Virus record (IMG/VR): IMGVR_UViG_3300037861_000102
Coordinates: 1-20,108 of that record
Reading direction: 5' to 3' (one strand)
Origin: a virus
DNA length: 20,108 nucleotides
Within the stretch, counting starts at the first letter, position 1; every line of letters begins with the position of its first letter. Position numbers and translations under genes: made by a program. The notes beneath the pieces were generated by a model. It saw only the letters and a list, made by a program, of their open reading frames with translations. It was not told the origin of the DNA and searched no databases. Positions 3,910 through 9,431 of the stretch are shown here, piece by piece.

Positions 3910-4065
3910 ATGGACACAACACAAAAAATCAAAAGACGCCTTCAAACTTTTACATTCGAAGAAGTCGCAAAAGAAATAGGCATAAGCCGAACCACATTGT
4001 ACAAGAGATTGCAATGCAACGACTGGAAGAAAAGTGAAATTGTTTTGATAAAATCATTATTTTGA
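3910..4065 (+). CDS. 51-aa HTH protein
   Basis: A short ATG-to-TGA frame encodes a compact helix-turn-helix protein: TFEEVAKEIGISRTTLYKRL at about 14-33 is the classic form, with an alanine in helix 2, the GIS turn and a recognition helix. Nothing else accompanies the domain. Its TGA overlaps the TTG start of the next gene (TTGA, 4062-4065), implying translational coupling. Tiny single-HTH proteins at the head of a phage replication cassette often act as local regulators or replication accessories; which applies here is unknown. Lysines after the recognition helix would aid DNA binding. Confidence 0.7.
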   Translation: MDTTQKIKRRLQTFTFEEVAKEIGISRTTLYKRLQCNDWKKSEIVLIKSLF

Positions 4066-4895
4066 CATATAAGTATAGTCTTAGACCGGGAAGCAAAAAA
4101 GACATTTGCCCATCTTGCAACAAAAAGACATTTGTTCCGTACTTTGAAACTGAAACAGGAAACGAAGTGGCGAAAGCTGGACGTTGTGATCGAGAGAGTA
4201 ACTGCGGTTATTTTAAAAAGCCAGAAGACAACGAAGCTATTACAGCGCCAAAGTTTGAAGCAATAGAAATACACACAGATTATATCCCTTTGCAAAAGAT
4301 GAAAGATTTATATTGCTTGGGCTCTTACAATTCATTTAGTAAATTTTTACAAAGTAAATTTGACTTAAAAGAAGTTTTTGCAGCCGAGCAAATGTATTTT
4401 TTAACTGGAATTAATAAGAGCGTAATTTTTTGGCAAATTGACCAATTAGAAAGAATAAGGTCGGGAAAGATTATGGAATACAATCCAGTAACAGGCAAGA
4501 GGTTAAAAGACGCAAACGGAAAGGCTCACATAAGTTGGGCGCATAAGAAACCGTATAATCTAAAACAATGCTTATTCGGTTTGCATTTATTGAATGATGA
4601 CCGTAAAAAAGATATTGCAATTGTGGAAAGCGAAAAGACAGCAGTAATAATGTCAATAAAAGAACCTCGATTAACTTGGATGGCATGTGGATCTCTTAAT
4701 GGTTTTAAAGTAGAGTATTTGGCTCCTCTAAGGCTTAGAAAAATATTTGGGTTCCCAGACAAAGGATGCTTTACGATATGGTCAGAAACCTCTGCTAGAT
4801 TAAACGAGCAGGGCTTTAACATTCAAGTAAGTGATTTAATTGAAAATAATTTAACGTTGTCTAATGGTGATGACTTAGCAGATTTGTATTTATGA
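4062..4895 (+). CDS. zinc-finger/Toprim primase-like protein (DUF6371-type)
   Basis: A 277-residue protein resembling the DUF6371-type primase-like proteins of Bacteroidota mobile elements. The N-terminus has the characteristic YSLRPGSKKDICPSC start and a zinc site (C16, C19, C42, C48; GRCDRESNCGY). The C-terminal half contains a Toprim-like core: AIVESEKTAV with E189, then FPDKG with D233, and a terminal NGDDLADL. Bacterial primases combine the same two parts, so primer synthesis or a related DNA-binding role in replication is likely, although the full primase catalytic domain is not obvious. The only start giving the N-terminal motif is TTG at 4062, overlapping the stop of the HTH gene. The end overlaps the methyltransferase ATG by four bases (ATGA). 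Confidence 0.75.
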   Translation: MTYKYSLRPGSKKDICPSCNKKTFVPYFETETGNEVAKAGRCDRESNCGYFKKPEDNEAITAPKFEAIEIHTDYIPLQKMKDLYCLGSYNSFSKFLQSKFDLKEVFAAEQMYFLTGINKSVIFWQIDQLERIRSGKIMEYNPVTGKRLKDANGKAHISWAHKKPYNLKQCLFGLHLLNDDRKKDIAIVESEKTAVIMSIKEPRLTWMACGSLNGFKVEYLAPLRLRKIFGFPDKGCFTIWSETSARLNEQGFNIQVSDLIENNLTLSNGDDLADLYL

Positions 4896-5518
4896 TAACA
4901 ATAACAAACGAAGATAATATGCTTTTAATGGCAAGGTATCCTGACAATTATTTTGATTTAGCAATAGTTGACCCGCCTTATGGATTAGGAAATAAAACGG
5001 TAGGTAGTGATAAGGTTGATTTAACAAATAGAAATTCACAACAAAAATTCACAAGACATAAATGGGATGATACTATTCCTTTGAATTCTTATTTTGATGA
5101 ATTGTTTAGAGTTAGTAAAAGACAAATAATTTGGGGAGGAAATTACTTCCCTTATATTTGGAAAAAAGAATGCAGAGGATTAATAACTTGGGATAAAATG
5201 GTTTACATACCGATAATGAGCCAAATAGAATACGCTTGGTATTCTGAAGATAAACTACCAAAATTAATAAAAATAAATAACACAGATATAAATAGAAAAC
5301 ACCCAACACAAAAACCTGTAAAACTTTACGAATGGCTTTTAATGAACTACGCTAAAGACGGCGACAAAATACTAGACACTCATTTAGGTTCTGGCTCAAT
5401 TGCAATAGCATGCCACAATCTTAAATTTGACTTAACGTCTTGTGAACTTGACAAAGAATACTACGAAGCAAGTTTAAAAAGATTACAAAACCATCAATCA
5501 CAATTAACAATGTTTTAA
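4892..5518 (+). CDS. DNA adenine methyltransferase, copy 1
   Basis: A 208-residue S-adenosylmethionine-dependent DNA methyltransferase of the N4/N6 amino type. Catalytic motif IV is D27-P-P-Y30 near the N-terminus. The AdoMet-binding motif lies at the C-terminus (LDTHLGSGS at about 161-169, followed by CELD), so this is the beta arrangement, with the target-recognition part in between. DPPY rather than SPPY favours N6-adenine. The most probable role is protecting phage DNA from host restriction or marking its own DNA. No restriction enzyme gene adjoins it. It overlaps the Toprim-like gene by four bases and is followed by the DUF3987 gene after two bases. A second, paralogous copy lies at 6823-7440. 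Confidence 0.88.
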   Translation: MITITNEDNMLLMARYPDNYFDLAIVDPPYGLGNKTVGSDKVDLTNRNSQQKFTRHKWDDTIPLNSYFDELFRVSKRQIIWGGNYFPYIWKKECRGLITWDKMVYIPIMSQIEYAWYSEDKLPKLIKINNTDINRKHPTQKPVKLYEWLLMNYAKDGDKILDTHLGSGSIAIACHNLKFDLTSCELDKEYYEASLKRLQNHQSQLTMF

Positions 5519-5520
5519 TT

Positions 5521-6819
5521 ATGAAAGACTTTGATAAATTACTAGAAAAAAAACAAGATTACAAAAATTTCCCAATAGACGTCTTCCCGATACAAGTCAC
5601 CGAGTACATGCAAGAGCTTAGAGATAAGCTAGGGTGTAATCCAAATTATATGGCTGGGGCATTCATCACAGCTTGCAGCATTTGCATTGGCAGAAGCAAA
5701 GCAATTCAGATACGTGATACATGGAGAGAGTGGGCCGTGTTTTGGAATATTATTATTGGAGAGGCTGGAAGCAAAAAAACCCCTTCGACTGCACCTTTTA
5801 TGAAGCCAATTAGGTCGATTGAATCAGAAATGTATAAAGATTATCTATCTAAGTTAAAAGCGCATAGCAACAATGTAAGCGACGATAAACCTTTACAACC
5901 ACGTTTATACGTTGGAGACGCAACAATTGAAGCGTATATACAAATTCACAGTCAAAACTTAAGAGGGGTTGCAATTGTGCTAGATGAAATTAGCGGTCTT
6001 GTTGCTAATTCGGGTAAGTACAACAAAGGATCTGATATTGAAAAGTACCTATCTGCTTTTTCCTATTCCGATATTTCAGCAGCTAGAAAAGGAGTAGGTA
6101 TGTCATCCATACTTTACGATCCGTACTTACCAATTTTCGGAGGTATTCAGCCAAAGATTTTGACTAGCTTAATGACCGAACAATTAAAAGACAATGGTTT
6201 TTGGGATAGATTTTTATTTGTAAGCGGTAACTTTCAAACAGGGAAAATGACCAAAGAAGATGTAGCTGTTAATGTTGCTAATAATTATGATAGCTATGTC
6301 CGTGGCATGTTTGAATTGATTAAAGATACAGAATTTACAAAAGAAAACAGTGATCTAAATGTCGATTATTACCACATGGATAATGAGGCGAAAGACCTTT
6401 GGTTTGACTACAATGGAAAAATTGAAGATATGATTGCGGACGGCTCTGAGCTTTCTAACGGAACAAAAAGCGCGTACAGTAAGATGGCCACATACTTTGG
6501 TCGATTTATTTTACTTATGCATATTCTAGACAGCATTTATGTATATCCGTTTCAGAAATTAAGAGATGCGCAAATAAATGTGGGCTCAGTTGAAAAAGCA
6601 ATACGACTTGTTAAATATTTTATGTTTCAATATGAATTAGTCAGCAAAGAAGTCTCTAGCGAAAAAGAGGCGAAAAACATTTTATTTGACACTAAGGGTA
6701 TGACAATATCGGAAAAAGTAAAACTGTTGCATACAAAGGATCCTAATATGAGCCAGCGGGCATTGGCTAAACATTTTTCAATTAGCGTGGGAAGTATTAA
6801 TAAAATTTTAAATAGTTAA
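5521..6819 (+). CDS. DUF3987 family ATPase with C-terminal HTH
   Basis: A 432-residue protein of the DUF3987 type, which in Bacteroidota phages and mobile elements accompanies primase-like proteins and is regarded as a replicative helicase-like ATPase. The start FPIDVFPIQVTEYMQEL is typical. A Walker A-like loop GEAGSKKTPS lies at 80-89 and a Walker B IVLDEIS at 152-158. The last roughly 27 residues (MSQRALAKHFSISVGSINKIL) form a helix-turn-helix, probably DNA-contacting. That HTH closely resembles the C-terminus of the protein at 7920-8234, the first gene beyond the palindromic region. The gene sits between two paralogous methyltransferases. Replication initiation or fork helicase activity is inferred from family and context. 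Confidence 0.82.
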   Translation: MKDFDKLLEKKQDYKNFPIDVFPIQVTEYMQELRDKLGCNPNYMAGAFITACSICIGRSKAIQIRDTWREWAVFWNIIIGEAGSKKTPSTAPFMKPIRSIESEMYKDYLSKLKAHSNNVSDDKPLQPRLYVGDATIEAYIQIHSQNLRGVAIVLDEISGLVANSGKYNKGSDIEKYLSAFSYSDISAARKGVGMSSILYDPYLPIFGGIQPKILTSLMTEQLKDNGFWDRFLFVSGNFQTGKMTKEDVAVNVANNYDSYVRGMFELIKDTEFTKENSDLNVDYYHMDNEAKDLWFDYNGKIEDMIADGSELSNGTKSAYSKMATYFGRFILLMHILDSIYVYPFQKLRDAQINVGSVEKAIRLVKYFMFQYELVSKEVSSEKEAKNILFDTKGMTISEKVKLLHTKDPNMSQRALAKHFSISVGSINKILNS

Positions 6820-6822
6820 ATT

Positions 6823-7440
6823 ATGATAACAATAACAAACGAATGTAACATGGAGTTAATGGCTCGTTACCCTGACAATTATTTTGATTTAGCAATAGTT
6901 GATCCGCCTTATGGGATTAATATAAATGAAAATATGGGATTAAAAAAAGGTCAAAAAAAGAGACATGATAAAAAAGTAGAATGGGACAATGAAATACCTA
7001 CTGCAGAATACTTTAAAGAACTTTATCGCGTTTCAAAAAATCAAATTGTATGGGGCGGAAATTACTTCCCAGATTTATGGGTAAGCGGATGTAGTCATTT
7101 TATATTTTGGGATAAAAAGACGCCAATAGGAATGAGTTTTAGCGATGGAGAGCTAGCTTGGACTTCTTTTAATAAAGCAGACAGAAAATACACTCTTTAC
7201 AACGAGAGGGTCGGTAAAATACACCCTACACAAAAACCAGTAAAGTTATACAAATGGCTTTTAATAAACTACGCAAAAGAAGGCGACAAGATTTTAGACA
7301 CGCATTTAGGTTCTGGAAGTATCGCAATAGCTTGTCATAATCTAAAATTTAATTTAACCGCTTGTGAACTTGACAAAGATTATTTTAAAGAAAGTTTAAA
7401 AAGATTACACAACCATCAATCACAACTCACAATGTTTTAA
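6823..7440 (+). CDS. DNA adenine methyltransferase, copy 2
   Basis: A 205-residue paralogue of the methyltransferase at 4892-5518. The first roughly 31 residues, through D27-P-P-Y-G, and the last 72, from HPTQKPVKLY to NHQSQLTMF, are nearly the same in both, including the LDTHLGSGS AdoMet motif. The middle (about 32-133), which should contact the target sequence, has diverged strongly apart from a WGGNYFP segment and a WDK motif. Matching stretches are also visible at the DNA level, with many silent changes, pointing to duplication followed by divergence or domain swapping. The two enzymes probably methylate different sites. This gene closes the cassette, and a terminator begins 10 bases after its stop. 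Confidence 0.88.
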   Translation: MITITNECNMELMARYPDNYFDLAIVDPPYGININENMGLKKGQKKRHDKKVEWDNEIPTAEYFKELYRVSKNQIVWGGNYFPDLWVSGCSHFIFWDKKTPIGMSFSDGELAWTSFNKADRKYTLYNERVGKIHPTQKPVKLYKWLLINYAKEGDKILDTHLGSGSIAIACHNLKFNLTACELDKDYFKESLKRLHNHQSQLTMF

Positions 7441-7512: not shown

Positions 7513-7549
7513 ACTAATATAATACTTAACTTACAATTTTGCAAAAATA

Positions 7550-7568
7550 GTGTTCAAGTCACGAACGC
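7550..7568. promoter_or_regulatory. left outer dyad of the octamer box
   Basis: GTGTTCAA and ACGAACGC face each other across three bases, an imperfect version of the perfect dyad at 7835-7853 with the same 19-base length. It is the mirror position of that dyad in the other arm. Confidence 0.55.
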
Positions 7569-7613
7569 TGTGTTCAGGCTTTTTATCAATGGTAGCAAGG
7601 CTTTCCGTAGGTT

Positions 7614-7629
7614 TTGAACGCTTGAACGC
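7614..7629 (+). repeat. tandem TTGAACGC x2 (left arm)
   Basis: Two exact head-to-tail copies of the octamer TTGAACGC. The mirror pair in the opposite orientation is at 7773-7788. Exact tandem copies inside otherwise diverged arms suggest selection for protein binding. Confidence 0.75.
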
Positions 7630-7659
7630 AATTCTAAATATCTTTTTACAAACTTATAA

Positions 7660-7704
7660 ATTCTTACATATTCTTTTAGTTAGATATATTATATATGTAA
7701 GAAT
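7660..7704. repeat. 11-bp inverted repeat in AT-rich core
   Basis: ATTCTTACATA (7660-7670) and TATGTAAGAAT (7694-7704) are perfect reverse complements around 23 bases. They could form a hairpin when the strands separate, or bind a dimer. Confidence 0.6.
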
Positions 7705-7734
7705 AATATTGTTAATATAATATATAATACTTCT

Positions 7735-7746
7735 ATACGTACGTAT
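7735..7746. repeat. 12-bp palindrome ATACGTACGTAT
   Basis: A perfect palindrome containing overlapping ACGT units, the only G/C-containing island in the right half of the AT-rich core. Confidence 0.55.
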
Positions 7747-7772
7747 GTATTAATAAAAAGATATTCGATTTT

Positions 7773-7788
7773 GCGTTCAAGCGTTCAA
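7773..7788 (-). repeat. tandem TTGAACGC x2 (right arm, inverted)
   Basis: Two exact copies of GCGTTCAA, the reverse complement of TTGAACGC, mirror the pair at 7614-7629. Confidence 0.75.
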
Positions 7789-7834
7789 AAAACGTGGTAG
7801 CCCTTACTACTATTGACTTTAAGCCCTGAACACA

Positions 7835-7853
7835 GCGTTCAATAATTGAACGC
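7835..7853. promoter_or_regulatory. perfect 19-bp dyad GCGTTCAAT-A-ATTGAACGC
   Basis: Nine perfectly symmetric bases on each side of a single A, built from two facing TTGAACGC boxes. This is the form expected for a dimeric HTH protein. It lies 46 bases upstream of the TATATTTG box of the next gene, so it could also regulate that gene. Confidence 0.65.
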
Positions 7854-7899
7854 TATAAAAATAAAAGTAATAATTAACGGATTTGTTCACTATTATAAC

Positions 7900-7919: not shown

Positions 7920-8234
7920 ATGGAATTAATTAACTTAGATCATTGCGCTACTAACGACCAAGATTCAATTTTAAAAAAAGAATCATTAAAAGCTTTTATT
8001 TTAAAAAATGAGAATTACAATGTAGAACTACTCTTAAATGCTTTAGATGTGAATAGAGTAACATTGATAAAATGGATTAAAGAGATAAATAGGCTGCCTT
8101 TAGAAAATTTTAAAGAAAGAATTGTAAAAATGAAATTGAAACACCCAGCATTAACACAAAGGCAAATAGCTATAAACATTGGCTGCAGTCTTGGAAGTGT
8201 TAACAAAGCGTTAAAAAAAATAAACATAAACTGA
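7920..8234 (+). CDS. DNA-binding protein with one or two HTH motifs
   Basis: A 104-residue protein with a probable HTH near the middle (NVELLLNALDVNRVTLIKWIKEI) and a clearer one at the C-terminus (HPALTQRQIAINIGCSLGSVNKALKK). The C-terminal segment shares the pattern QR..A......S.GS.NK.L with the end of the DUF3987 ATPase upstream, so both may recognise related DNA. It is the first gene after the 310-bp inverted repeat, with its own TATATTTG promoter. Possible roles are origin- or operator-binding protein or a terminase accessory factor; none is proven. The family is not recognised beyond HTH. Confidence 0.75.
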   Translation: MELINLDHCATNDQDSILKKESLKAFILKNENYNVELLLNALDVNRVTLIKWIKEINRLPLENFKERIVKMKLKHPALTQRQIAINIGCSLGSVNKALKKININ

Positions 8235-8518: not shown

Positions 8519-8979
8519 GTGATTTCACAATTACAAAAGAGCAATTAAGAAGTTTGACGGATCCTAAAGTTAAAGAAATGTTTCCAGATGCTTTTAGAAA
8601 TGTTTTAGAAGTTGGAAAATGGTATAAAAATGATTTATGGCCCGCAATTTTTTGCGCAAATACAGATTATACAGGCAAAGAGTTTACTGGTTATGGCGTT
8701 AATAGCAATGGTTCTTTTTGTAAATACCTTAGCTTATTTTCGCATCCAGATTGGCAAGCAGCAAGCAACGAAGAAGTGTTTGAAGCATTAAAAAGAGCAG
8801 CAATTAAAATGGGGTACAAGAAAGGTTTGTATTGTGTTTTTGGAAAAGACAAGCACATTAGAGCTATTGATGGAAATGAATTTAAATGGAGTGAATATTG
8901 GGATGCATTATATATTGGATATGATTGTATTTTTCAAGACGGAGAATGGGCGGAAATTGTTAATAAAAATTTATTGTAA
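8515..8979 (+). CDS. conserved-looking phage hypothetical protein
   Basis: A 154-residue soluble protein, rich in aromatic residues and with no signal peptide. The segments VGKWYKNDLWPAIFCANTDYTGKEFTGYGV and NEEVFEALKRAAIKMGYKKG resemble small proteins often found beside terminases and lysis genes in Bacteroidota phages, where no function is established. It overlaps its neighbours by 4 bases and 1 base, so it is firmly part of the operon. I cannot assign a role. Confidence 0.7.
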   Translation: MSDFTITKEQLRSLTDPKVKEMFPDAFRNVLEVGKWYKNDLWPAIFCANTDYTGKEFTGYGVNSNGSFCKYLSLFSHPDWQAASNEEVFEALKRAAIKMGYKKGLYCVFGKDKHIRAIDGNEFKWSEYWDALYIGYDCIFQDGEWAEIVNKNLL

Positions 8980-9431
8980 TGGCAAAAAACGGAAACATAC
9001 ACCCAACTAGGGTATTTAGAACTCCAGACGAATTAGAAAGAGCTTTTGAATTGTATAAAGAAGATTTGATAGTTCAAGCAGGTAGCTGGCAAAAAGTGCA
9101 GTATGTAGGTAAAGAAGGGCAACGAATGAGCGACGATTTAAAGCTGCCATATACAATGGATGGGTTTGAAGTATTTTGTTATAAAAATTATGGAACAGTT
9201 GAGGATTATTTTAAAAACAAAGATGGTTATTACACCGACTTCTCCCCTATCTGTTCGCAGATAAAAAAAGAAATTAGGTCAAATCAAATTACTGGAGGAA
9301 TGACAGGGGTTTTTAATACAAGCATCACACAGCGATTAAATAGTCTAGTCGAGAAAATTGAAGACGTTACACCCGCAACTCCAAAGAAAATAATTGTAAA
9401 AATTAAAAGAGATGAAAATACTAATCCTTAA
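8979..9431 (+). CDS. terminase small subunit (DNA-packaging gp3-like)
   Basis: A 150-residue protein matching the pattern of the DNA-packaging protein gp3/small terminase family. It starts with a short leader and FRTPDELERAFELYK, then has YTMDGFEVFCYKNYGTVEDYF, a helical block SPICSQIKKEIRSNQI, and the characteristic TGGMTGVFNTSITQRLNSLVEKIE. The C-terminus is basic. Small terminases recognise viral DNA and bring the large subunit to it. The large terminase follows after one small ORF. The ATG overlaps the last base of the preceding stop codon. Family and position agree, so the call is fairly strong. Confidence 0.8.
   Translation: MAKNGNIHPTRVFRTPDELERAFELYKEDLIVQAGSWQKVQYVGKEGQRMSDDLKLPYTMDGFEVFCYKNYGTVEDYFKNKDGYYTDFSPICSQIKKEIRSNQITGGMTGVFNTSITQRLNSLVEKIEDVTPATPKKIIVKIKRDENTNP

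Follow-up and report, generated by a model that had tools for sequence, protein, structure and literature searches.

What is the function of a large, box-bearing palindrome lying in a virus genome between a gene for a DUF3987 protein and the terminase and structural genes, and which protein reads its boxes? The DNA analysed here (the window) is a virus record of 20,108 bases. Upstream of the palindrome are found the genes for a zinc-ribbon/DUF6371 protein, the DUF3987 protein, and two small methyltransferases; downstream, the gene for a 104-aa helix-turn-helix (HTH) protein is followed by the terminase and structural genes, and a promoter-like motif, TATATTTG, is located between the array of boxes and the gene starting at 7920. 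The genes that bear on the question are the following:

4062–4895, plus strand: zinc-ribbon and DUF6371 protein (Pfam PF21957 and PF19898), inferred to be a probable primase partner.
5521–6819, plus strand: DUF3987 helicase with a C-terminal HTH, the proposed initiator (Pfam PF13148, E 8.5e-48; AlphaFold2 pLDDT 81.6; co-variation peak at the recognition helix).
7920–8234, plus strand: 104-aa HTH protein, accessory, with a recognition helix resembling that of the DUF3987 protein (weak HTH matches; absent from L053–L057).
8979–9431: terminase small subunit gene (phrog_606), with the array about 1.1 kb before it.

The region 7547–7856 matches its own reverse complement with 70–72% identity (BLASTN E 9.5e-32 and 4.4e-15 in two runs). 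The complementarity of the arms amounts to 84% for 7547–7578/7825–7856 and 74% for 7577–7648/7754–7825, two blocks separated by a register shift of one base. A pattern search for GYGTTCR located boxes at 7550, 7570, 7773, 7781, and 7835 on the plus strand and at 7562, 7615, 7623, 7827, and 7847 on the minus strand. Ten of the 12 copies of this pattern in the window fall inside the palindrome, as do all six exact copies of GCGTTCAA, while in 500 shuffles of the palindrome region GYGTTCR occurred 0.1 times on average and never more than twice. The description of a 310-bp palindrome with ten boxes in the first-pass annotation is borne out, each box lying within 1–2 bases of where it had been placed. 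The elements of the palindrome, with the strand where one is assigned, are:

7547–7856: imperfect 310-bp palindrome, proposed origin of replication (reverse-complement self-alignment; same site 3' of the DUF3987 gene in nine relatives).
7550–7577: left outer boxes GTGTTCA (7550), CGAACGC (7562, minus strand), and GTGTTCA (7570), from the pattern search.
7578–7613: left spacer from outer to inner boxes, ATCAATGGTAGCAAGG (own spacer motif in other arrays; belongs to arm pair I1).
7614–7629, minus strand: left inner boxes, two tandem copies of TTGAACGC (pattern search).
7630–7772: AT-rich core, candidate unwinding element (83% A+T across the 145 bp between exact 7-mer boxes).
7692–7718, plus strand: core word TATATGTAAGAAN6TGTTAATAT (kept in nine matching IMG/VR contigs in a scan of viral contigs).
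7773–7788, plus strand: right inner boxes, two tandem copies of GCGTTCAA (pattern search).
7789–7825: right spacer, mirroring the left one.
7826–7854: right outer boxes TGAACAC (7827, minus strand), GCGTTCAA (7835, plus strand), and TTGAACGC (7846, minus strand), from the pattern search.

Seven viral contigs encode a DUF3987 protein 78–97% identical to that of the window, and a scan with the word from the AT core retrieved nine contigs, two of them new. Among INPHARED phages only distant metagenomic matches were obtained, and a scan of bacterial genomes with the window-type protein did not find relatives. All close relatives carry a palindromic region 3' of the DUF3987 gene, with a nearly unchanged core and different arms. 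The boxes are TTGAACGC in the window and two relatives, GTTCATGAAC in L053 and L058, TGAACGC/GTTCAC in L057, GTTCG in L059, and GGTTGC in L064. The two arms of one genome are 0.59–0.72 identical in eight of nine genomes (0.48 in L061), whereas the same arm compared across distant genomes shows an identity of about 0.47–0.57, the level of shuffled sequence (0.52). Since the arms match within a genome and not between distant genomes, the symmetry is kept while the sequence turns over. The core word at 7692–7718, which holds TTCTTACATA-type inverted words, remains nearly constant while the arms turn over completely. Absence of the boxes from close relatives had been named as an outcome that would refute the first interpretation; the array is present in them but its box sequence has changed, and this test needs to be restated. 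The suggestion that the boxes and their symmetric spacing are selected also needs correction: relatives do not conserve the octamer itself, whereas they retain the mirrored layout, an AT core, and the link of the box to the helicase helix.

The palindrome belongs to a large and previously undescribed class of box arrays that lie next to DUF3987 genes. Among 163 distinct DUF3987 loci with enough 3' sequence, all from metagenomic virus contigs (IMG/VR), 132 have an array in which a single 7-mer occurs six or more times no further than about 1.1 kb from the DUF3987 gene, 70 on its 3' side and 62 on its 5' side; many of the remaining loci are truncated where the contig stops. Of 2,725 windows of 500 bp drawn at random from these loci and counted separately, 57 reached seven copies. 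The arrays have a median of 14 boxes, a span of 276 bp, and a core of 54 bp with 90% A+T, compared with a locus average of 69%. Each arm holds about 6–7 boxes, most commonly six, divided into an inner group of 2–3 boxes at about 24–50 bp from the centre and an outer group of 3–4 boxes at about 80–135 bp, and 41 of 55 arrays have their innermost boxes in mirrored orientation (41 versus 14). The clade of the window differs from this large class in having five clear boxes per arm and a longer core of about 143 bp. Box sequences among the relatives include TTGAACGC, GTTCATGAAC, GGTTGC, GTTAAC, GTGTAAA, GGTTTAA, TGCGCAA, and others, and the side of the helicase gene on which the array lies, 3' or 5', has changed six times on the tree.

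The spacer between the box groups has a motif of its own, roughly TTGTTAAGYCTTATAAACATTGA read outward, as in 7578–7613 and 7789–7825 of the window, and it is IHF-like in some relatives. Perfect WATCAANNNNTTR matches (IHF sites) occur 18 times between inner and outer boxes versus 5.7 expected, in only 12 of 70 loci, which is no more than a hint; the spacers may be sites for a DNA-bending protein of the host. Where DUF3987 proteins of plasmids and phages carry a different C-terminal tail, no clear array lies nearby, with the exception of seven copies of AACTGCA near L330. One of them is encoded by the Bacteroides uniformis plasmid pBUN2 (2923–5457), where the DUF3987 and DUF6371 genes adjoin those of MobC and a relaxase and no box array is found nearby. 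From these neighbours on a Bacteroides plasmid, together with the TATATTTG motif, the host of the phage is inferred to belong probably to the Bacteroidota.

The DUF3987 proteins associated with arrays end in a short HTH, whose recognition helix in the AlphaFold2 model of the window's protein comprises residues 423–431 (VGSINKILN). In the main test, box similarity was compared with protein similarity across 67 non-redundant proteins (less than 92% identity) without prior choice of a part of the protein. Box distance correlates with recognition-helix distance (Mantel r 0.475; partial r 0.441 after accounting for the rest of the protein; 0 of 5000 permutations). In a scan of 431 nine-residue windows of these proteins, the best one was the recognition helix itself, with a partial r of 0.46, compared with 0.18 for the best window outside the C-terminal domain and a mean of 0 (s.d. 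0.10); adding 17 further loci (n = 84) left the peak in the same place (0 of 3000). Small changes in the helix are accompanied by small changes in the box: SxQMIYKY pairs with GGTTTAA and SLRMIYKY with GGTTCAA, while SRQQVINL pairs with GTGTAAA and SRQQVNRL with GTGTAAC. According to two residue rules, both written after the data had been seen, a box containing C accompanies Arg at helix residue 3 (15/16, versus 2/49 without it), and one containing AAC or GAC accompanies Arg at residue 7 (17/17, versus 2/48). When the HTH columns were left out of the tree, these residues changed 14 and 12 times, respectively, and in independent pairs the box followed in 8.6 of 9 and 5.9 of 6 cases for the two residue changes, never in the opposite direction.

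A held-out set of 17 non-redundant new proteins from a later scan supports the overall link between box and helix only weakly. The effect of the helix was positive and weaker (partial r 0.27; 106 of 5000), the scan peak in this set did not lie at the helix, and prediction from the nearest helix was not significantly above prediction from the nearest rest of the protein (0.81 versus 0.77, p 0.13). The simple rule linking Arg3 to C, which had worked well in the first set, did not hold in its literal form when applied frozen to the held-out proteins (1/6), where Arg3 is accompanied by G or C one step further, at box position 4 or 5.

Because the boxes co-vary with the helix of the helicase, flank a core that is 90% A+T on average, and stay beside the helicase gene on either side, the palindrome is read as the phage origin of replication, its boxes being bound by the phage's own MCM-like helicase, with initiator and helicase in one protein. 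A probability of about 0.86 is assigned to this reading, for which no data on replication, DNA binding, or helicase activity exist. An iteron-type origin had been the first interpretation of the locus, and it is now the best-supported explanation, although a replication start has not been demonstrated. The DUF3987 ATPase was also rightly named as a candidate binder, whereas the 7920–8234 protein, proposed alongside it, is not a conserved partner: five relatives with the palindrome (L053–L057) lack its gene, which rules it out as an obligate binder of the boxes. A GC-skew switch near 7700, which the first-pass annotation would have expected, is seen neither in the window nor in two longer relatives; this test has little power, since nearly all genes lie on one strand.

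The array might instead be an operator, through which the DUF3987 protein or a small HTH protein (the 104-aa one at 7920 or a 51-aa one at 3910) controls transcription of the flanking genes, perhaps by looping. The promoter-like TATATTTG motif, the presence of small HTH genes, and the resemblance between the 104-aa helix SLGSVNKAL and SVGSINKIL of the DUF3987 protein are in keeping with such a role, but the array is kept where the 104-aa gene is missing, it moves between the two sides of the helicase gene by clade while box identity follows the helicase helix, and at least 12 boxes around a core of 90% A+T are more than an operator needs. An operator as the sole explanation is unlikely, although an origin could still control expression as well. 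Much less credible still is a structure for recombination or a transposon end, or a cruciform or RNA hairpin selected for pairing; its long inverted arms and their greater identity within genomes than between distant ones would fit, but in larger clades the arms agree as mirrored box arrays with similar distances and not as perfect arms, no Rfam family matched above chance, and neither a transposase nor an integrase was recognised next to the array in the window. The position of the array ahead of the terminase small subunit gene in the window would suit a packaging signal (pac/cos) recognised by that subunit, but box identity tracks the helicase helix and in many phages the arrays lie on one side or the other of helicase genes, 5' or 3', which makes this reading equally improbable.

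In the origin reading, computation establishes the boxes, their layout, and the co-variation between box and recognition helix, while physical binding, hexamers, melting, and replication start are inferred. The DUF3987 protein, encoded immediately upstream, would bind the boxes through its C-terminal HTH, and the two mirrored box groups would seat helicase assemblies to the left and right of the AT-rich core, which would then open. The protein, a putative MCM-like ring ATPase, would continue as the fork helicase with the neighbouring primase. A more specific version remains tentative: each arm would seat one ring, its roughly six boxes each holding the HTH of one hexamer subunit, so that the two arms together would bring a pair of MCM-like hexamers face to face on the AT core; initiator, loader, and replicative helicase would be one phage protein, whose origin specificity would have been re-set repeatedly through changes at a few positions in one helix. 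A Foldseek search with the DUF3987 model gave mostly MCM/CMG structures among the top PDB matches (best E 1.9e-4, weak TM 0.35–0.42), which lends weak support to a predicted ring helicase; by sequence, no PDB relatives were found at E ≤ 1 except two spurious matches.

Origins of the initiator-helicase kind are already known. In SaPI Rep/ori (Ubeda et al. 2007, described in PMC7581432), one protein is both initiator and helicase, and the origin immediately downstream of its gene contains short repeats that the protein's C-terminal domain recognises. The present arrays would share the single initiator-helicase protein and the C-terminal reading of repeats, and they do share the adjacency of repeats and gene, as well as an AT-rich region (90% in the average core, 83% in the window). 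That repeat specificity follows the helicase C-terminal domain is supported by the co-variation, without binding data and with a held-out set that alone does not localise it. In contrast, SaPI helicases are of the DUF927 or Primase_Cterm/D5-like types, whereas here the protein is DUF3987, in phages probably of Bacteroidota hosts, and the arrays are mirrored, with 5–7 boxes per arm, a box changed many times, and a position on either side of the gene. By sequence the protein does not belong to the SaPI Rep family, Pfam giving only DUF3987. In SCCmec, the helicase Cch2 acts on repeats just downstream of its operon, which its isolated C-terminal domain binds (PMC7581432); there too the repeats adjoin helicase genes, but the putative origin has only three AAGTG iterons and the helicase belongs to another family. 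DUF3987 domains are predicted helicases whose C-terminal winged helix may recognise origins, and the PrimQH and All3500 families combine Prim-Pol and helicase with DUF3987, according to passages of PMC5862659 that describe no DUF3987 origin. Larger-clade relatives here carry an N-terminal Prim-Pol match, whereas the window's DUF3987 protein has no fused Prim-Pol domain. Iteron plasmid origins of the RepA/TrfA type likewise have repeats beside an AT-rich region. Their initiators are not helicases and recruit the host DnaB. An origin of that type, with direct repeats bound by a non-helicase Rep and accompanied by DnaA boxes, does not fit the window in its first two features, since box identity follows a helicase-family protein and the boxes form mirrored groups.

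Neither the DUF3987 family as such an initiator nor the scale of the class was found in the literature searched. What is new is that an origin is assigned to DUF3987 proteins, that its boxes are mirrored, with about six to each arm, that the array shifts its position relative to the gene, and that box and helix have repeatedly been re-specified together. This provides a likely job for DUF3987, which Pfam still names as a family of unknown function, and allows the origin to be predicted in many uncultivated phages. Moreover, the natural helix/box pairs constitute a recognition-code data set for an initiator, show how phages change the specificity of an origin while retaining the rest of the helicase, and are candidate mutually independent replication origins.

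Some further observations concern other genes. The 104-aa HTH protein (7920–8234 in the window, 7593–7895 in L058, 7916–8230 in L059) has a helix similar to the DUF3987 helix of the same genome, as in SLGSVNKAL/SVGSINKIL and SSVNKYL/STVNKYL, and this optional protein may compete with the DUF3987 protein for the same boxes. Right before the primase-like gene, at 3910–4065, lies the gene of the 51-aa HTH protein, whose helix also differs between L057 and L059 and which may act at the origin or in regulation. The sole long gene on the minus strand, at 1–1150, is an open frame running past the contig end and SbcC/RecN-like by eye. Finally, the paralogous small DNA methyltransferases on both sides of the DUF3987 gene (4892–5518 and 6823–7440) have near-identical ends and different middles, and relatives vary in their number and middles at the same spots, with a PAPS-reductase-like gene in place of a methyltransferase in L054; the methyltransferase pattern looks like a swapping of recognition regions.
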